Shown piece by piece: positions 11,660-20,584 of a DNA stretch of 64,000 nt. Where the stretch lies: positions 1-64,000 of the forward strand of contig NZ_MRCB01000009.1 of assembly GCF_001904635.1 (NCBI RefSeq). Direction: 5' to 3'. The position numbers and the translations under genes are program-made. The DNA comes from Hydrococcus rivularis NIES-593. Lineage in GTDB: Bacteria > Cyanobacteriota > Cyanobacteriia > Cyanobacteriales > Microcystaceae. How positions within the stretch are numbered: position 1 is the first letter of the stretch; each line of letters opens with the position of its first letter. The notes under the pieces are model-generated. The model was not told the origin of the DNA. It ran no database searches and saw only the letters and a program-made list of their open reading frames with translations.

Positions 11660-11815
11660 CCACCTATTTGAGTTTTGACGCGCAAAAACCCCTGTGCTAA
11701 CTTCCGAGTCCAAACCGATAAAGATAATCTTGACACTTAGAGCGATCGCGACTAGATCCTATAAAGGGAATATTCCACTTTTAGAGTGGGAAGAGGAGAA
11801 AACAGAGGAGAAAAC

Positions 11816-14800
11816 TTGGAAACAAAGCCATTAGCGATTATTCATGGCGATTCCTTACCAGAAGGATTTAATAGCGCGATCGCCTTACCAGAGATTCTAC
11901 AACGAGCCGCCAGAGAAACGACAGGAATCACTTATCTCCAATCCGACGAAACCGAAGTTTTTCAGTCCTACGCCGAGTTACTCGAACGCGCTACCTGCAT
12001 TCTTAGTGGTTTGAGAGCGTTAGGGTTGAAGCCTAAAGACTTCGTAATCCTACAACTTTCTCGCCAGCAAGACTTTCTAGCAACTTTCTGGGGATGTCTG
12101 TTGGGCGGTTTTGTCCCCGTTCCGATTGCAGTTGCTCCTAGCTATACACCCGATAATAGCAAAGCCAATCTAGTCTACCAGGCTTGGCATTTGTGCGATT
12201 GCGCCCTTGTAGTCAGCCATCGACAATTAATCCCTGCCATTCGTTCTTTTTCTGAAAAGTTGCAGATCGTCGCCGTGGAAGAACTACAAAGCTACAAGCC
12301 AGATAATAATTGGCATACAGGCGATCCCGACGAGCTAGCCCTGCTGTTACTAACTTCTGGCAGTACGGGGACGCCCAAAGGAGTCATGCTCAGCGATCGC
12401 AATTTGCTGGCGAGTGCTTTTGGGATGGCAAAGGTCAATCGTCTTTCCCAAAAAGATATTACCTTGAATTGGATGCCTTTGGAACACGTGGCTAGCCTGG
12501 TCATGTTCCATATTACGGAAGTTTATTTAGGCTGCCAGCAAATCCACGTCCCGAACGAGTTAGTATTACAGAATCCCTTAAAATGGCTAGATTTTTGCGA
12601 TCGCTATCGAGTGACGGCAACCTGGGCACCGAATTTTGCCTATGGTTTGGTCAACGAGCGAGTAGAAGCCATTAGCGAACCATGTTGGGATCTCTCTTGT
12701 CTGCGCTGGATAGGCAATGGGGCAGAAGCCGTCGTCGGCAAAACGACTCGACGTTTTCTGGAGTTGCTAGCGCCTTACGGGTTAGCCAGTACCGCCGTTA
12801 GTCCCGGCTATGGGATGTCGGAAACCTCCTCTGGAATCGTCCATTCCCATCGATTTTCCCTTGAGTCAACCACAGATGACGATCCGTTTGTAGAGGTGGG
12901 ATCTCCCATTCCAGGCGTATCCCTGCGGATCGTCGATTCTGAAAATCGGGTCGTTGAAGAAGGTACGATAGGATTACTTCAGATCAAAGGACTGACGGTT
13001 ACTTCAGGGTATTACAAAAGCCAGGAACGCGATCGCGAGATCTTTACAGAGGATGGCTGGTTTAATACAGGCGACCTCGGCTTTGTGCGAGAGGGACGCT
13101 TGACGATTACGGGTCGCCAGAAAGAAGTCATCATTATTAATGGGGTTAATTACTACAACCATGAAATCGAAGCCGTCGTCGAAGCAATCGACGGAGTGGA
13201 AGTCTCCTATACTGCTGCCTGTGCCGTTCGCAGGATTGGAGATACAACCGATAAAGTAGCCATTTTCTTCAATCCATCTAATTTTCTAGAAACGTCTCTA
13301 CATTCCCTCATCAAAAAAATTCGCAAGACACTGGTAAGTAAGATTGGCGTATATCCAGATTACCTGATACCAGTAGAACGAGAGATGATTCCTAAAACTG
13401 CGATTGGAAAGATTCAACGAAAGCAGTTAAGTCAACGTTTTGAAGCTGGCGAATTCGACTCGATCCTTCAACAAATTAATGCTTTGCTGGAGAGTCGAGA
13501 AACAAGCGAACTACCGCGAAGCGACCTAGAACGTCAAATTGCCGAGATCTGGCAAAAAGTATTAGGGATTGAACGAGTCAGCCTGCACGATAATTTCTTT
13601 GAACTGGGTGGCAATTCCTTGCTGCTGATGCAAGTGTTGGCTAAATTGCAGGAACGCTTGGGACGACAACTATCAGCCGTAGAACTATTTCAATATCCGG
13701 CGATCGCAACTTTAGCCCAATATTTAAGTCAGGAAAAAACCGAAATCAACGCTGCCCAACAGGGACAGCAGAGGGCACAACATCGGCACAAATCTCAAAA
13801 TACAGATATTGCCGTCATTGGGATGTCTTGTCGCTTCCCTGGAGCCAAAAATGTTGATGAATTCTGGCAAAATTTATGTGATGGAGTGGAGTCAATTTCC
13901 TTTTTTACCGATGAAGAAATTCTCGCCTCTGGAATTGACCCTCAACTTCTAAATAATCCTAATTACGTCAAAGCCAGTCCGATTCTGGAGGATATCGAAC
14001 TATTTGATGCAGAATTTTTTGGCTACAGCCCCAAAGAAGCCGAACTAATAGATCCGCAACAGCGCCTTCTGCTCGAATGTGCTTGGGAAAGTTTGGAGAA
14101 TGCGGGTTACAATCCTCTGACTTATCAAGGTTCGATCGCGCTTTATGCTGGTGCTTCTGCCAACACTTATTTACTCAATAACGTTTATCCAAACCGCCAC
14201 CAAATTGATGAAAATGACAATCTACAAGTCGTCAATTTGGGTTCGATGGCTGGCTTTCAAATGACGGTAGCTAATGACAAAGATTATTTGACCACGCGGG
14301 TTTCTTACAAACTCAATCTTACCGGAGCCAGCGTCAACGTCCAAACCGCTTGTTCGACTTCTCTAGTGGCGATTCATATGGCGTGCCAAAGCTTACTCGC
14401 TGGCGAGTGCGATATGGCTTTAGCAGGCGGCGTTTCCGTTCACGTTCCCCAAAAGGTCGGCTATTTGTATCGGGATGGGACGATTCTTTCTCCAGACGGG
14501 CATTGTCGGGCGTTTGATGCTGACGCTCAAGGGACGCTTTTTGGTAGCGGTGCGGGAATCGTCGTTCTCAAACCTCTTGAAGATGCGATTCGCGATCGCG
14601 ATCGCATTTATGCTGTCATTAAAGGGTCAGCTATTAACAACGATGGTGGCACGAAAGTAGGCTATCTCGCTCCCAATAGCGACGGACAGGCAAAAGCGAT
14701 TGCTGAAGCGATCGCAATCTCTGGCATCGATGCAGAAACGATTAGCTACATAGAAGCTCATGGTACAGGAACAATTCTAGGCGATCCGATCGAAATTGCC

Positions 14801-17800
14801 GCATTAACCCAAGCATTTCGCACCAATACCCAGAAAAAAGGCTTCTGTGCCATCGGTTCGGTTAAAACCAATGTCGGGCATCTTAATATTGCCTCTGGCG
14901 TGACGGGTTTTATTAAAACCGTTTTGTCGCTTTATCATAAAAAACTGCCAGCTAGCCTGCATTTTGAGCAACCCAATCCGCAAATTGATTTCGTCAATAG
15001 TCCTTTTTACGTCAATACAACGCTAAAAGAATGGAAAACGGCAGGTTTTCCACGCCGCGCCGGGGTTAATTCATTGGGGATTGGTGGAACGAACGCTCAT
15101 GTCATTTTAGAAGAATTTCGCGCAGAGACCATCCCCCCTGCCCCCCTTATTAAGGGGGGAGGACGCAGAGAAAAGAAGGTTGATCTTCCTAGTCATCTTC
15201 TTACGCTGTCTGCGAGAAGTGAGAAGGCGCTACAAGAGCTAGTAGAGCGTTATAAAGCTTTTTTAGAGTCGAATCCAGAAGTATACCTATCCGATCTTTG
15301 TTTTACTGCTAATACAGGGCGATCGCATTTTGAGCATCGTCTTTGCATAGTAACCGAATCTGTCGAGCAGTTGCGTCAACAACTACAGGCATATTTGATT
15401 GGAAAGGAAATTTCTGGACTGGTAAGCGGACAAGCATTAAGCAGTCAGCGTCCTAAGCTAGCATTTTTATTTACAGGTCAAGGTTCGCAATACGTCGGAA
15501 TGGGACGAGAACTATATCAAACTCAACCTACCTTCCGCGCCGCCTTAGATAAATGCGCCGAAATTGTGCAACCTTATCTAGAAAAGCCACTACTTGAAGT
15601 TTTATACCCTAAAGAAGCAGGAGAAAATTTCTACCCCCCAACCCCCCAATCCCCCTTCTCAAGGCGAGGGAGGATTCTAAAATCCCCAATCGATGAAACA
15701 GCCTACACCCAACCCGCCCTATTTGCCATTGAATATGCCCTCTACCAACTCTGGCAGTCGTGGGGCATCTCTCCAACTGCCGTTATCGGTCATAGCGTCG
15801 GCGAATACGCCGCTGCTTGCGTGGCAGGAGTTTTTAGTCTAGAAGATGGACTCAAACTGATCGCCGCCAGAGGTCGCTTGATGCAGCAATTGCCACAAGA
15901 TGGGGCAATGGTAGCCGTTTTTGCCAGCGAGGCAAGAGTTAGTGCTGCTATTGCCCCCTACCCAGAACAAATCGCCATAGCAGCCATTAACGGCATAGAA
16001 AACATCGTTATATCTGGCAAGCGTAAAGCGATAGAGACTGTCGTTGCTAGCTTGGAAAACGAGGGAATCCAGACGAAACCCCTCAACGTCTCCCATGCCT
16101 TCCATTCTCCTTTGATGGAGCCAATCCTAGCAGAATTTGAAACAGTCGCTCACCAGATTACTTATTCTCCTCCAAGGATAGAATTAATCTCCAACCTGAC
16201 TGGAGAGGCTATCGGCGAAGAAATCGCCACGCCACAATATTGGTGCCGCCATATCCGGCAACCGGTTAGATTTGCTCAAAGTATAGAAACGCTGCATCGG
16301 CTAGGATATCAAACCTTTGTAGAAATTGGAGCTAACCCCACCCTTTTAGGCATGGCACGCACGGTTTTAGAAAATTCAAAATCCGCCGTTCTCCCGGAAG
16401 CGGTTCCGGGAACTTGCGGCGGCTTCGCCAAAATCCACAATCCAAAATCCTATCTGTGGCTGCCCAGCCTGCGTCCGGGAGATTCCAACTGGCAACAATT
16501 GCTTGAGAGTTTGGCTCAATTGTGTGTGCGGGGAGTAAGCGTCGATTGGTTTGGTTTCGAGCGCGATTATTCCCATTACCGCATAGCACTACCAACCTAT
16601 CCCTTCCAACGAAAACGCTACTGGCTTGAAGCTAATCCAAAAATAATCCAAAATCCGATCCCTCCTACCTCCCTTTTTAAGGGGGAATCTAAAATCCAAA
16701 ATCAGTATCATCCCCTGCTTGGGCGAAGATTGCGATCGCCGCTAAAAGAGATTATATTCGAGTCGCAGCTAGCGCCAGATAAGCCTGCCTTTCTTAAAGA
16801 TCATCGCATTTTCCAACAGGTCATCTTGCCTGGGACTGCTTATTTAGAAATGGCATTGGCTGCTGGGATAGCAGGGTTGAAGTCTACCAAATTAGTGCTT
16901 GAGAATGTAACGATACAGCAAGCACTGATGCTGCCAGAGGAAGAATGCCAAACCGTTCAGTTAATTCTAAGTCAGGAAGACACAGGGACTTCCTTCGAGA
17001 TCTATAGTTTAATATCTGAAGATGAGGAATCTTGGAAACTGCACTGTTCTGGAAGAATTGTTGTCAGAGAAGAAAATACGGAACCACAACAGATCGATTT
17101 AGCTCGATTGCGAGGTCAATTTGCTAGCGAACTCTCAGTAAATACTCACTATGACAGGTGTCGAGAGCTAGCGATCGATTATGGTGAAAGTTTCCAAGCG
17201 ATCGCGCGATTATGGAAACAAGACGGAGAAGCATTAGGCTGGATTCGCATACCAGAAACATTAGCCTCAGAAGTTTCTATTTATCAGTTCCATCCAGTAC
17301 TACTCGATGCCTGCTTCCAGGTTATCTTTGCCGCTCTCCCAGAAGCGCTAAAATCCGAAACCTATTTACCAGTAGGATTAGAACGTCTATCTCTCTATCG
17401 CCATCCCGGACAAACTCTGTGGAGTCACGTTTGCTTGCGTCCATTAAATAGCGCCAATCCAGAGACTATAATAGCTGACTTACGCTTGTTTGATGACATC
17501 GGAAATCTAGTGGCTCAAATCGATGGACTGTCCTCAAAACGAGCCAGCCGCGAAGCACTATTAGGTATTACAGAAAAGTCTTGGCACGATTGGTTATATC
17601 AAATAGAATGGCGTTCTCAGCAACGAGACAGGGAGATGGGAAGATGGGGAGACGAGGAGAGCAGAAGTTGGCTAATTTTTGCGGATAAAGGAGGATTAGC
17701 CAAGCAACTAGCCGAGCTTTTGGAAGCTAAACAACATGCATGTACTCTTGTTTTTCCAGGAGAAGAGTACAAACAACAGTCGTCAGAACAATTTCAAATC

Positions 17801-20584
17801 GACCCCAACAATCCAGACGAATTTCAGCGATTTTTGAACGCGATCGCACAAAATCAACCTTCTCTGTACGGCATAATTTATTTATGGAGTCTAGATGCAC
17901 TAGACATTCAGTTTCTGACAAAATCTGGCTTAGAAATAGATGTAAGGCGAGGATGCGCTGGTGTCTTGCATTTAATCCAAGCCCTGGTCAAAAGAAGGGA
18001 TAAGGGAACAACGAGACAAGAAGAACTCCCCCCATCTCCCTATCCCCCCGTCTCACCCTCCTCGACGAAGCCCAATAATGCTCCTCGCCTATGGTTGGTG
18101 ACTAAAGGCGCTCAGCCAGTCAAAACCGACGGCGATCTATCTACATCTGGAATCGCTCAGTCTTGCCTGTGGGGTATGGGAAAAGTCATTGCCCTCGAAC
18201 ACCCAGAATTGAATTGCGTGCGAATCGATCTAGATCCGAAATCGACGGAAAATGAAATACAAACTTTGTTTGACGAAATTTGGTCGCCAGATGCAGAAGA
18301 CCAAATCGCCTTTCGAGATGGAAACCGTTATGTAGCTAGGTTAGTTCGCAACCATCTTAACAAGCAGTCCGAAAACCAAGCGATCGCGCCTATTGAAAAT
18401 TCAATCCCCGTTCGATTAGAAATAGAAAATCGAGGAGTACTGGATAATTTGCACTGGCAACCAACAACTCGTCGGCAACCTAGCGTCGGCGAGATTGAAA
18501 TTCAAGTACGCGCTACGGGACTTAATTTTAGAGATGTGTTGAATGCTCTGAGATTGTATCCTGGAGATGCCGGACTTTTGGGACTCGAATGTGTTGGCGA
18601 GGTAGTGGCTATCGGGCAAGGCGTGCGAGATTTCCAGATAGGAGATGCAGTAGTCGCGATCGCGTCTGGTAGCTTTAGTCAGTACGTCACGGTTAACGCT
18701 GCTCTTGCGGTACATAAGCCAGAAAATCTCAGCTTCGAGGAAGCCGTAACGATTCCAGGTGCGTTTTCAACGGCTTACTACAGCTTACATCACCTCGCCA
18801 AAATTTCGGCAGGCGATCGCATTTTGATTCATGCGGCGGCGGGAGGAGTCGGTTTAGCCACCATCCAACTCGCCCAGCAAGCGGGTGCTGAGGTATTTGC
18901 AACTGCTTCTCCCAGCAAGTGGGACTTTCTCCAGTCTCTGGGAGTGAAACATATCATGAACTCTCGGACGCTAGATTTTGCCGAAAAAGTAATGTCTATT
19001 ACTCAAGGCGAGGGAGTAGACATTGTTCTCAATTCTCTGGCAGGAGAATTTATTCCTAAAAGCCTATCGGTTTTAAGTGCCAGAGGTCGCTTTATAGAAA
19101 TCGGCAAAAATGACGTATGGGATGCCAAGCAAGTCGCTCGATTAAAACCCGATATTTCTTATTTCCTTGTCGATCTAGTCCAGGTAACGCAACAACAACC
19201 AGACCTGATTCAATCGATACTGTGTCAATTGATGCAGCAATTTCAAGCAGGCAATCTCAAGCCTTTATTATATAAAGTATTTTCACGCGATCGCGTTGTC
19301 GATGCTTTCCGCTATATGCAGCAGGCAAAGCATATTGGGAAAATTGTCGTTTCTCAAAATTCAGAATTCAGAAATGATAGTGCCTATTTAATTACTGGCG
19401 GGTTGAGTGGAATAGGATTACAAGTTGCTCGCTGGATGGTCGATCGAGGCGCGAGAAACTTGGTTTTAGTGGGACGTAGCGGTGCTTCCCAAGCAGCACG
19501 AAAAACAATTAGCCAACTGGAGAAAGCAGGCGCTAGGGTTGATGTAGTGCAAGCAGACGTATCTAATACAGAAGATGTGGCTCGAATTTTCTCCTCTTCT
19601 CTTCCCTTACGAGGGATTATTCATGCGGCTGGAATTCTCGATGATGGCGTGTTGGTACAGCAAAGTTGGGAGCGTTTTCAACAGGTTATGGCACCCAAAG
19701 TACAAGGTGCTTGGAATCTGCATTTAGCAACTCAAAATTATCCGCTGGATTTCTTTGTTATGTTTTCTTCTGCTGCTTCTGTTGTTGGTTGTGCGGGGCA
19801 AGCCAACTATTGTGCCGCTAATGCATTTTTAGATGCCCTAGCCCATTATCGCCGATCGCTGGGGCTTCCTGGATTGAGTATTAACTGGGGAAGTTGGTCG
19901 AGTGTAGGAATGGCTGCCCGGTTAGCAGAGCGCGATCGCGATCGACTCGCACAACAAGGAATCACTGCAATTCAGCCAGAACAAGGCTTACAAATCCTAG
20001 AAGAATTACTCGCTTGCGATATTACTCAGATTAGCGTATTGCCGATAGATTGGTCGGCGTTTCTCAAACAACTTCCTAATGATGAGGCATTTTCATTTTT
20101 TAAAGAAGTTATGTCTGCCTCTGAGGAGAAAATACAGCAGCGATCCAAGTTTCTGCAACAATTAGAAGCAGCGACGACGAGCGATCGTAATGGTCTTTTA
20201 ATCGATTGTATCCGCTCTCATATCGCAAGAATCCTTGGAATCGAGCCACCAGAGTCTATAGACATCGATCGAGGACTTACCGAATTGGGGATGGATTCCC
20301 TCTCATCTGTAGAACTCAGAAATAAACTGCAAACGAGTTTGCAATGTACTTTGCCTTCTACCTTAATTTTTGATTATCCAACCATAGCCGCGATCGCTGA
20401 TTATTTAGACAAAACAATCCTTTCCCCAACCTCTAGTAAAGTAGAGAGAGAAACTAGAGGCGAAGATCGCAATTCAGCCATAGCAGAAATCCAACGGCTT
20501 TCTGAAGAAGAAGCTGAGGCAATGTTATTCGACGAGCTGAAAAATTTAACCGAGCAACAATGGCTTTGGAATCCCAGAGAATGA
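11816..20584 (+). CDS. Type I polyketide synthase with acyl-AMP ligase loading module
   Basis: A single protein of about 2920 aa. Order: acyl-AMP ligase (20-560; LLLTSGSTGTPKGVMLSD, YGMSETSSG, PKTAIGKIQRK); ACP1 (570-640, GGNS with Ser601); KS (664-1100; TACSTS Cys846, EAHGTGT, NVGHLN); AT (1215-1610; GHSVGEY Ser1327, HAFHS typical of malonyl-CoA); DH (1630-1920; HRIFQQVILPG His1663); structural KR half (1935-2200); ER (2206-2510; HAAAGGVGLATIQLA); KR (2520-2710; LDD, YCAANAF); ACP2 (2797-2865, GMDS Ser2828). All reductive sites look intact, so the expected action is to activate a carboxylic acid, add one malonyl unit and reduce it fully. There is no thioesterase. The acidic helical tail (LSEEEAEAMLFDELKNL) resembles a docking segment. 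The start is a TTG with GAGGAG upstream; a GTG at 11786 is possible. Product unknown. Confidence 0.93.
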   Translation: METKPLAIIHGDSLPEGFNSAIALPEILQRAARETTGITYLQSDETEVFQSYAELLERATCILSGLRALGLKPKDFVILQLSRQQDFLATFWGCLLGGFVPVPIAVAPSYTPDNSKANLVYQAWHLCDCALVVSHRQLIPAIRSFSEKLQIVAVEELQSYKPDNNWHTGDPDELALLLLTSGSTGTPKGVMLSDRNLLASAFGMAKVNRLSQKDITLNWMPLEHVASLVMFHITEVYLGCQQIHVPNELVLQNPLKWLDFCDRYRVTATWAPNFAYGLVNERVEAISEPCWDLSCLRWIGNGAEAVVGKTTRRFLELLAPYGLASTAVSPGYGMSETSSGIVHSHRFSLESTTDDDPFVEVGSPIPGVSLRIVDSENRVVEEGTIGLLQIKGLTVTSGYYKSQERDREIFTEDGWFNTGDLGFVREGRLTITGRQKEVIIINGVNYYNHEIEAVVEAIDGVEVSYTAACAVRRIGDTTDKVAIFFNPSNFLETSLHSLIKKIRKTLVSKIGVYPDYLIPVEREMIPKTAIGKIQRKQLSQRFEAGEFDSILQQINALLESRETSELPRSDLERQIAEIWQKVLGIERVSLHDNFFELGGNSLLLMQVLAKLQERLGRQLSAVELFQYPAIATLAQYLSQEKTEINAAQQGQQRAQHRHKSQNTDIAVIGMSCRFPGAKNVDEFWQNLCDGVESISFFTDEEILASGIDPQLLNNPNYVKASPILEDIELFDAEFFGYSPKEAELIDPQQRLLLECAWESLENAGYNPLTYQGSIALYAGASANTYLLNNVYPNRHQIDENDNLQVVNLGSMAGFQMTVANDKDYLTTRVSYKLNLTGASVNVQTACSTSLVAIHMACQSLLAGECDMALAGGVSVHVPQKVGYLYRDGTILSPDGHCRAFDADAQGTLFGSGAGIVVLKPLEDAIRDRDRIYAVIKGSAINNDGGTKVGYLAPNSDGQAKAIAEAIAISGIDAETISYIEAHGTGTILGDPIEIAALTQAFRTNTQKKGFCAIGSVKTNVGHLNIASGVTGFIKTVLSLYHKKLPASLHFEQPNPQIDFVNSPFYVNTTLKEWKTAGFPRRAGVNSLGIGGTNAHVILEEFRAETIPPAPLIKGGGRREKKVDLPSHLLTLSARSEKALQELVERYKAFLESNPEVYLSDLCFTANTGRSHFEHRLCIVTESVEQLRQQLQAYLIGKEISGLVSGQALSSQRPKLAFLFTGQGSQYVGMGRELYQTQPTFRAALDKCAEIVQPYLEKPLLEVLYPKEAGENFYPPTPQSPFSRRGRILKSPIDETAYTQPALFAIEYALYQLWQSWGISPTAVIGHSVGEYAAACVAGVFSLEDGLKLIAARGRLMQQLPQDGAMVAVFASEARVSAAIAPYPEQIAIAAINGIENIVISGKRKAIETVVASLENEGIQTKPLNVSHAFHSPLMEPILAEFETVAHQITYSPPRIELISNLTGEAIGEEIATPQYWCRHIRQPVRFAQSIETLHRLGYQTFVEIGANPTLLGMARTVLENSKSAVLPEAVPGTCGGFAKIHNPKSYLWLPSLRPGDSNWQQLLESLAQLCVRGVSVDWFGFERDYSHYRIALPTYPFQRKRYWLEANPKIIQNPIPPTSLFKGESKIQNQYHPLLGRRLRSPLKEIIFESQLAPDKPAFLKDHRIFQQVILPGTAYLEMALAAGIAGLKSTKLVLENVTIQQALMLPEEECQTVQLILSQEDTGTSFEIYSLISEDEESWKLHCSGRIVVREENTEPQQIDLARLRGQFASELSVNTHYDRCRELAIDYGESFQAIARLWKQDGEALGWIRIPETLASEVSIYQFHPVLLDACFQVIFAALPEALKSETYLPVGLERLSLYRHPGQTLWSHVCLRPLNSANPETIIADLRLFDDIGNLVAQIDGLSSKRASREALLGITEKSWHDWLYQIEWRSQQRDREMGRWGDEESRSWLIFADKGGLAKQLAELLEAKQHACTLVFPGEEYKQQSSEQFQIDPNNPDEFQRFLNAIAQNQPSLYGIIYLWSLDALDIQFLTKSGLEIDVRRGCAGVLHLIQALVKRRDKGTTRQEELPPSPYPPVSPSSTKPNNAPRLWLVTKGAQPVKTDGDLSTSGIAQSCLWGMGKVIALEHPELNCVRIDLDPKSTENEIQTLFDEIWSPDAEDQIAFRDGNRYVARLVRNHLNKQSENQAIAPIENSIPVRLEIENRGVLDNLHWQPTTRRQPSVGEIEIQVRATGLNFRDVLNALRLYPGDAGLLGLECVGEVVAIGQGVRDFQIGDAVVAIASGSFSQYVTVNAALAVHKPENLSFEEAVTIPGAFSTAYYSLHHLAKISAGDRILIHAAAGGVGLATIQLAQQAGAEVFATASPSKWDFLQSLGVKHIMNSRTLDFAEKVMSITQGEGVDIVLNSLAGEFIPKSLSVLSARGRFIEIGKNDVWDAKQVARLKPDISYFLVDLVQVTQQQPDLIQSILCQLMQQFQAGNLKPLLYKVFSRDRVVDAFRYMQQAKHIGKIVVSQNSEFRNDSAYLITGGLSGIGLQVARWMVDRGARNLVLVGRSGASQAARKTISQLEKAGARVDVVQADVSNTEDVARIFSSSLPLRGIIHAAGILDDGVLVQQSWERFQQVMAPKVQGAWNLHLATQNYPLDFFVMFSSAASVVGCAGQANYCAANAFLDALAHYRRSLGLPGLSINWGSWSSVGMAARLAERDRDRLAQQGITAIQPEQGLQILEELLACDITQISVLPIDWSAFLKQLPNDEAFSFFKEVMSASEEKIQQRSKFLQQLEAATTSDRNGLLIDCIRSHIARILGIEPPESIDIDRGLTELGMDSLSSVELRNKLQTSLQCTLPSTLIFDYPTIAAIADYLDKTILSPTSSKVERETRGEDRNSAIAEIQRLSEEEAEAMLFDELKNLTEQQWLWNPRE
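15128..15170. repeat. Intergenic-type repeat within PKS frame (KS-AT linker)
   Basis: A C-rich then G-rich inverted repeat (CCCCCCTTATTAAGGGGGG) is read in frame as PPAPLIKGGG. This hairpin is typical of spacers in cyanobacterial genomes, not of coding sequence. It sits exactly between the KS and the AT linker. Confidence 0.55.
15628..15692. repeat. Intergenic-type repeat within PKS AT domain
   Basis: A run of CCCCCCAACCCCCC followed by CTTCTCAAGGCGAGGG and AAAATCCCCAATC is translated as YPPTPQSPFSRRGRILKSP. It interrupts the AT between its LFTGQGSQ and GHSVGEY motifs, where homologues have a short surface loop. Confidence 0.5.
16636..16705. repeat. Intergenic-type repeat within PKS frame (AT-DH linker)
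   Basis: AATCCAAAA units flank a CCTCCCTTTTTAAGGGGG inverted repeat. They are read in frame as a Pro/Ile/Asn-rich linker between the post-AT region and the DH domain. The composition matches dispersed cyanobacterial spacer repeats. Confidence 0.5.

Follow-up and report, generated by a model that had tools for sequence, protein, structure and literature searches.

A loading polyketide synthase of Hydrococcus rivularis NIES-593 and its likely partner, a polyketide synthase that ends in a serine palmitoyltransferase-like domain

In Pseudomonas fluorescens MYb115, SgaA, SgaB and SgaC make sphingolipids that are derived from a polyketide synthase (PKS), with an alpha-oxoamine synthase (AOS) that has serine palmitoyltransferase (SPT) activity (PMC12134224). 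In the parts of that study on which we draw, the acyl chain is built by a type I PKS and released with L-serine by the SPT-like alpha-oxoamine synthase, and a KDSR-like SDR is proposed for reduction of the ketone; one iterative PKS and a separate AOS are encoded in one cluster, and the word "cyanobacteria" has a count of 0 in the main text (PMC12134224). Alpha-oxoamine synthase domains within assembly lines are also listed in the relevant section of PMC3870968. For cyanobacteria, the cited portion of a 2022 study states that two sphingolipids are known, that their genetic basis is unreported and that none was found in Nostoc punctiforme (PMC8895605). The starter modules of other cyanobacterial assembly lines provide a second comparison, as their supply by isopropylmalate synthase (IPMS) and isopropylmalate dehydrogenase (IPMDH) has been proposed. 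In the floridanemamide and portoamide systems, as described in part of PMC13252402, IPMS and IPMDH genes beside an adenylation starter module are proposed to provide a 2-oxo acid, and an extra dehydratase gene and a KR in the loading module are found as well. HphA, a relative of IPMS and homocitrate synthase, performs the first step in the elongation of aromatic 2-oxo acids for natural products of cyanobacteria, according to the passages used from PMC12961565.

The PKS that we compare with these systems, P0001, is encoded in a 64,000-nucleotide stretch of the genome of H. rivularis NIES-593 (the window); other genomes are given G-numbers and the contigs of this genome C-numbers. Its gene is a single open reading frame (ORF) on the forward strand that runs from a GTG at 11786 to 20584, and the TTG at 11816, the start chosen in the preliminary description, has GAGGAG five bases 5' of it. 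The protein read from this TTG has 2922 residues (11816..20584, +), and orthologues of it were found. On the forward strand are found, in this order, an adenylation (acid ligase) domain predicted to be of the McyG/keto-acid type (11816..13465), a PCP-like ACP1 with GGNS (13535..13726; Pfam PP-binding, residues 574-637), a ketosynthase (KS; 13802..14968, residues 663-1051) with Cys846, His982 and His1022, an acyltransferase (AT; 15464..16504, residues 1217-1563) with GHSVG and HAFH, a dehydratase (DH; 16709..17560, residues 1632-1915), an enoylreductase (ER; 18488..19351, residues 2225-2512), a ketoreductase (KR; 19382..19900, residues 2523-2695), ACP2 with GMDS (20201..20422, residues 2796-2869) and a C-terminal tail of 52 residues (20426..20581; 13 D/E and 7 K/R) that resembles a docking helix, LSEEEAEAMLFDEL. 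By the motif rule for AT domains, the combination of GHSVG with HAFH points to the malonyl type. The Pfam matches, which comprise AMP-binding, two PP-binding, KS, AT, DH, zinc-dehydrogenase (ER) and KR, all exceed their curated cut-offs. Also found were the Cys/His/His of the KS, the His and Asp of the DH, the nucleotide motifs of the ER and KR, the LDD of the KR and the serines of both ACPs, and the KR Tyr was seen on visual inspection of the translation. The intact ligase-ACP-KS-AT-DH-ER-KR-ACP set claimed in the preliminary description is thus confirmed, as is its lack of a release domain, which Pfam shows nowhere in P0001. Among the NCBIfam models, 0 of the best 25 of 260 matches of the whole P0001 reach their own cut-offs. 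A full-length copy is present in the congener G002 and matches P0001 at 2657 of 2874 aligned positions (92% identity).

All ORFs of at least 60 aa in the window were compared by blast with queries for the ligase, ACPs, KS, AT, DH, ER, KR, alpha-oxoamine synthase (AONS), sulfotransferase (ST), thioesterase (TE) and neighbour genes. The queries matched P0001 and one isocitrate-dehydrogenase-like ORF only; among these ORFs no TE, sulfotransferase, AONS or second PKS/NRPS was found, in agreement with the earlier remark that the window holds no PKS/NRPS partner. The neighbours of P0001 that were searched are housekeeping-like (TruB, ABC ATPase and HAD hydrolase). An olefin synthase was considered and rejected, given that P0001 does not have the ST-TE end; the ST-TE PKS of this genome sits on C33, and the domain order is unlike that of an olefin synthase, as had been said before. 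Olefin-synthase-like pieces are located at the ends of C34 and C33 (L088:2-3796 and L087:1-9032), with ligase-ACP-KS; KR and ACP; and KS-AT-KR-ACP-ST-TE.

P0001 and its copies also differ in length in frame. An interspersed repeat lies in frame near the AT end (16373..16450, +); a 141-base query had 39 matches in the genome of H. rivularis, including itself, four of which are flank matches in the C33 PKS genes. Its 22 residues are missing at the same place in G002, and G001 and G003 have similar gaps. In the AT, 18 residues at 15617-15670 (residue 1268) have no counterpart in the G002 copy, and in the KR at 19595 (residue 2594) the G002 copy has 28 residues that are missing from P0001.

The ligase had been taken for a fatty acyl-AMP ligase (FAAL). 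We compared residues 1-550 of P0001 with PDB entries, of which 4r0m (McyG, 498 bits), 6ulw (496 bits) and 6ulx (492 bits) scored far above the fatty-acid entries 3pbk (fatty acyl-adenylate ligase, 150 bits), FadD23 (116 bits) and FadD32 (103 bits). Entries 6ulw and 6ulx are, we assume, the keto-acid-selecting domains of StsA. The reciprocal control, a FAAL of the same genome encoded on C16, gave the mirror image, with 703 bits for 7r7g, 346 bits for FadD32 and 162 bits for McyG. In a tree of 38 ligases, P0001 and 19 relatives from loading-PKS genomes formed one clade (89/93) with an almost invariant pocket region; a fork of 27 McyG/keto-acid-type rows (99/99), the order inside which is partly open, holds the P0001 ligase, and four FAALs formed a separate clade. 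The FAAL insertion of roughly 20 residues is present in the four FAALs and missing from P0001 and its orthologues in the alignment. The NCBIfam fatty-acid-AMP ligase model PRK05850 scored 172 bits with P0001 vs 441-480 bits with the four FAALs. A point against this reading is that the best NCBIfam models of the P0001 ligase are still those for fatty acid-CoA ligase (282 bits) and fatty acyl-AMP ligase (257 bits), although both scores are far below the cut-offs of 572 and 600, respectively. A FAAL with a fatty-acid starter as the default is rejected on the PDB scores, the FAAL control, the tree, the missing insertion and PRK05850, and the FAAL label has to be dropped. As judged from phylogeny and structural matches, the P0001 ligase is a McyG-type adenylation domain and not a typical FAAL, so a fatty acid is no longer the obvious starter.

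P0001 also has the layout of McyG-type starters, in which a ligase of that clade is followed by ACP-KS-AT. The McyG-like protein in the mcy-like locus of G028 has the order ligase-ACP-KS-AT...KR-ACP, and its identities to P0001 are 44% for the ligase, 52% for the ACP and 65% for the KS. The protein differs from P0001 in that it had no DH/ER match to our queries; its gene belongs to an NRPS-PKS locus and has no PKS-AONS next to it.

A candidate for the missing acceptor was found on another contig of H. rivularis. Contig C57 (10.6 kb) encodes a PMT_2-like membrane protein of 624 residues and a PKS of 2624 residues with the order KS-AT-DH-ER-KR-ACP-AONS, the last 398 residues of which are an Aminotran_1_2 domain. 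This fusion of a type I PKS to an SPT-like AONS is found in this genome and in its relatives. The best PDB matches of the AONS are serine palmitoyltransferases, and its GTLSKSF aligns with the GTFSKS of 3a2b, so that the lysine motif is kept. What couples P0001 to the PKS-AONS is co-occurrence and adjacency, as detailed below. In the congener G002, both PKSs are whole and about 1 Mb apart on its single contig (4,986,817 bases). In G001 the PKS-AONS is whole and the loading PKS consists of two frames truncated where a contig ends, and in G003 both PKSs are in pieces that are cut by contig ends. In addition, a PMT_2-like gene (L086:525-2399) precedes the PKS-AONS in G000, G001 and G002, PMT_2-like proteins and a GT4 glycosyltransferase are found near the PKS-AONS in G193, G197, G162 and G080, and these neighbours hint at a glycosylated product. 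The PKS-AONS of G222 (L146:10879-17598) had no AT match and adjoins P450 and SDR genes; G262 has the same two neighbours.

We searched 388 genomes of the class for both PKSs; that the same set served both searches is judged from their matching totals and genome labels. For the loading PKS, 18 of 23 matches were kept as orthologues (at least 56% identity over most of the query, or at least 61% over part of it) and five, in G050, G381, G169, G188 and G227 (43-59%), were dropped. The AONS search yielded 39 genomes, 22 with a PKS-AONS (19 long frames, two contig-edge pieces in G216 and G311 and, by identity only, a fragment in G286) and 17 with a stand-alone, ACP-fused or ligase-fused AONS. Both PKSs occur in 17 genomes, the loading PKS alone in one (G267, 85% complete, with no AONS seen), the PKS-AONS alone in five and neither in 365. 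All but one of the 18 genomes with a loading PKS therefore also have a PKS-AONS (15 as a fused or long frame and two as contig-edge pieces) vs 5 of the 370 others; with contig-edge and fragment AONS scored as absent, the counts are 15, 3, 4 and 366. At the level of genera, the partner is found in 10/10 with the loading PKS vs 3/150 others, and the pair spans 10 genera in five families (f1, f27, f40, f51 and f53). The Fisher values for this co-occurrence are tiny and ignore kinship, so we put more weight on adjacency and on how many genera are involved.

The two genes are separated by 3 bases in G373 and by 6 bases in G013 and G020, the second PKS of G013 being called as two frames. In G080 they lie on either side of an IPMS-like gene, and G250 seemingly has the same order, as judged by a 333-aa contig-end piece that is 82% identical to the PKS-AONS of G242. 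The pair is thus adjoining or near in five genomes of four families, and the two genes are at separate loci in the remainder. The KS piece beside the IPMS-like gene of G250 was also considered as an AT-less KS and rejected, since a PKS-AONS begins with it. In a wider set of 28 related loci, the 26 annotated ones (L009-L034) had no ligase of >30% identity to that of P0001 and no AONS match. Among the loading PKSs, that of G171 (L201:4065-12311) had no KR match between ER and ACP2, a match that is present in G152 of the same genus, and in G274, G197 and G003 (L211, L212 and L084) the ligase was called as one frame and the remainder of the protein as another.

Given the distribution and the adjacency, P0001 likely loads the starter and carries out the first extension in a line of two PKSs, in which the PKS-AONS would release the chain with an amino acid. 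Release by a second-half enzyme encoded elsewhere in the genome would explain both the missing release step of P0001 and its solitude. Two claims of the preliminary description, that P0001 is an orphan and that its acceptor is missing, are not supported, because a PKS with a PLP release domain, the C57 PKS-AONS as candidate acceptor, occurs in the same genome and the gene pair adjoins in relatives; the guess that P0001 starts a pathway encoded elsewhere has gained support from the same PKS on another contig, the co-occurrence and the adjacency. P0001 could instead work alone and iteratively, its product being set free as an acid by a separate thioesterase or hydrolase that acts in trans, in keeping with its full reductive loop in one module, the absence of a nearby partner in the window genus and a divergent alpha/beta-hydrolase ORF beside the AT-less KS described below, in H. 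rivularis and G002. We regard this as highly improbable, as the gene nearly overlaps that of the PKS-AONS in G373, G013 and G020, its docking-like C-tail recurs and no TE match was found beside the loading PKS in 17 annotated stretches with one olefin-synthase TE as the query.

It also appears quite unlikely that P0001 feeds another line of its own genome (the C18 NRPS-PKS or the PKS genes on C5, C16, C30, C33 and C34), with the PKS-AONS co-occurring through shared ancestry. The genome has eight further strong PKS-type KS places, C57 among them, tails of docking type and N-terminal helices are widespread, and the KS domains of C18 are the most similar in this genome to the P0001 KS (67%). The C18 line, however, starts with its own ligase-like domain, four genes have a matching distribution, and the adjacency to the PKS-AONS recurs in five genomes of four families.

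The tail of P0001 bears on the route between the two PKSs that we favor. A similar C-tail is present in 16 of 17 orthologue rows, with G166, truncated at a contig end, as the exception, and the earlier view that it looks like a docking segment holds. The matching N-terminal helix, however, was found on an AT-less or dead-AT KS and not on the PKS-AONS, the N-termini of which, where examined, had no docking helix; a docking helix as proof of the PKS pair was accordingly rejected. This AT-less KS is encoded directly 3' of the loading PKS in G242, G171, G152, G193, G270 (cut) and G080, and divergently upstream of it in G013 and G020. The active-site Cys is present in the 11 proteins inspected and a docking-type N-terminal helix in 10 of them (the first 55 residues were seen in the G003 frame). 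Thus, the chain may pass the AT-less KS first. The copy of H. rivularis on C5 has a dead AT remnant (GYGVG for GHSVG) and an SRPBCC neighbour, and in G242, G193 and G080 the AT-less KS is followed by an SRPBCC protein and an SDR. The hydrolase ORF that is divergent beside the AT-less KS in H. rivularis and G002 (L106:10459-11361 and L270:8659-9561) is about 31% identical to the TE query over about 100 residues and is Abhydrolase_1 in Pfam; it could be a trans-acting hydrolase.

Two further genes accompany the pair. In 14/18 genomes, the loading PKS adjoins a gene of roughly 400 residues that is IPMS/homocitrate-synthase-like, an assignment made with Pfam for four of these genes (HMGL-like) and by blast for the others. 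In 10 genomes, the next gene called behind the PKS-AONS (in G311, behind the contig-edge AONS piece) has roughly 350 residues and is IPMDH-like, as judged by a domain scan of two of these genes and by blast for the others. In leucine biosynthesis, enzymes of the IPMS and IPMDH kinds serve one chain-lengthening route. The position of the IPMS-like gene by the loading PKS and of the IPMDH-like gene behind the PKS-AONS thus means that the enzymes of one pathway type are split over the two loci. The IPMS-like gene is found in 17/18 loading-PKS genomes vs 6/370 others, in which the identities are 56-59% and which we guess to encode HphA; the IPMDH-like gene is found in 15/18 vs 7/370, and G060 and G293 have it without the remaining set. 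In H. rivularis, the IPMS-like gene is on the contig of the window, 62 kb further (C67:83027-84196, 69%), and the IPMDH-like gene is on C8 (68%), separate from the leuB-like gene (43%). The best PDB match of the IPMS-like protein is 6ktq, which the relevant part of PMC12961565 gives as the solved structure most homologous to HphA.

These helpers might make the amino acid for the AONS (after transamination) while an ordinary acid serves as the starter of an otherwise correctly paired line. The place of the IPMDH-like gene in 10 genomes, behind the PKS-AONS and not behind the ligase, is in line with this reading, which we nevertheless consider unlikely. The IPMS-like gene adjoins the ligase gene in 14/18, and the AONS has the SPT-like GTLSKS motif. 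In addition, G373, G013 and G020 have neither the IPMS-like nor the IPMDH-like gene and keep an AONS that is 62-68% identical, whereas their ligases, with those of G009 and G024 of the same family, form another clade (100/100). The absence of both helpers together with a ligase of another clade and a kept AONS suggests that both enzymes serve the ligase.

In the two-PKS line that we propose, the ligase would adenylate and load on ACP1 a starter that is probably a 2-oxo acid, made one carbon longer by the dedicated IPMS-like and IPMDH-like proteins, or else a derivative of such an acid. P0001 differs from the floridanemamide and portoamide loading modules in having no KR between ligase and ACP1, so the 2-oxo group would stay or the acid would be altered before loading. 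The KS-AT-DH-ER-KR set would then add one fully reduced C2 unit on ACP2, or several if it is iterative, and the chain would be handed to the C57 PKS-AONS for a second reduced extension. The PLP-dependent AONS would release the chain by decarboxylative condensation with an amino acid to give a 2-amino-3-ketone. This amino acid is most likely L-serine, as suggested by the overall similarity and one residue. Ser242 of the serine palmitoyltransferase family contacts the serine beta-hydroxyl, according to the part of PMC3870968 used here, and by our own reading of that part it is the serine before the lysine in the motif.

An SDR would reduce the amino ketone to a sphingoid-like amino diol. H. rivularis has this SDR on C2 (70%), and it was present in 9/9 genomes searched, with 57-71% identity in the eight besides that of H. 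rivularis. Its PDB matches, a hydroxyacyl-CoA dehydrogenase (102.1 bits) and then the KDSR TSC10 (100.8 bits), have scores that do not separate KDSR from other SDRs. The proposed line resembles SgaABC in the PKS-made chain, the predicted SPT-like release and possibly the reduction by an SDR, and differs from it in that there are two PKSs rather than the single PKS of the SgaAB kind, with the AONS fused to the second, and in the loading by an adenylation domain, the IPMS/IPMDH-like helpers, the separate loci in most genomes and the cyanobacterial hosts. Given that PKS-derived sphingolipids are known from Pseudomonas (SgaAB), what is new here is the two-PKS, often genome-scattered cyanobacterial version. 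No paper on a two-PKS cyanobacterial system was found in our literature search, whose scope lay mostly outside subscription journals, and the phrases used for split clusters in cyanobacteria gave no match. We put forward tentatively, and as somewhat short of an even chance, that at least five cyanobacterial families make new sphingoid-like amino alcohols with a two-PKS line, an SPT-like end and a KS with a lost or dead AT as the third partner; the end of such amino alcohols is possibly aromatic or branched, as set by a dedicated 2-oxo-acid homologation. If true, this would account genetically for the de novo synthesis of sphingoids by cyanobacteria, and the gene set is a concrete candidate for sphingolipid genetics in other cyanobacteria.

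The genes of the proposed pathway are spread over about six places on the chromosome of one complete genome and lie within about 31 kb in another. The latter stretch, G080 2,524,685-2,556,096, contains genes for an IPMDH-like protein, two PMT_2-like proteins, GT4, the PKS-AONS, the IPMS-like protein, the loading PKS, the AT-less KS, SRPBCC and SDR, with a few unidentified ORFs between them. Cluster-based mining can fail in such cases, since the window genus has no locus resembling the whole pathway, yet the same parts turn up jointly in several genera and form a cluster in one genome; cross-genome comparison is a way of pairing "orphan" megasynthases.

In addition to the PKS-AONS, AONS loci that are free of PKS genes and consist of ligase, ACP and AONS were found on C1 of H. 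rivularis (L161:12259-13920) and at L163, L174, L175, L160 and L170. A shared SRPBCC gene in these loci was considered and rejected, as the 223-aa gene belongs to the histidine-phosphatase family; it is present in G269, with homologues in G244 and G281. A related SDR is found in several of the loci (G269, G244, G281 and G403), and ligase and AONS are fused in one protein of 1081-1151 aa in G126, G272, G326 and G042.
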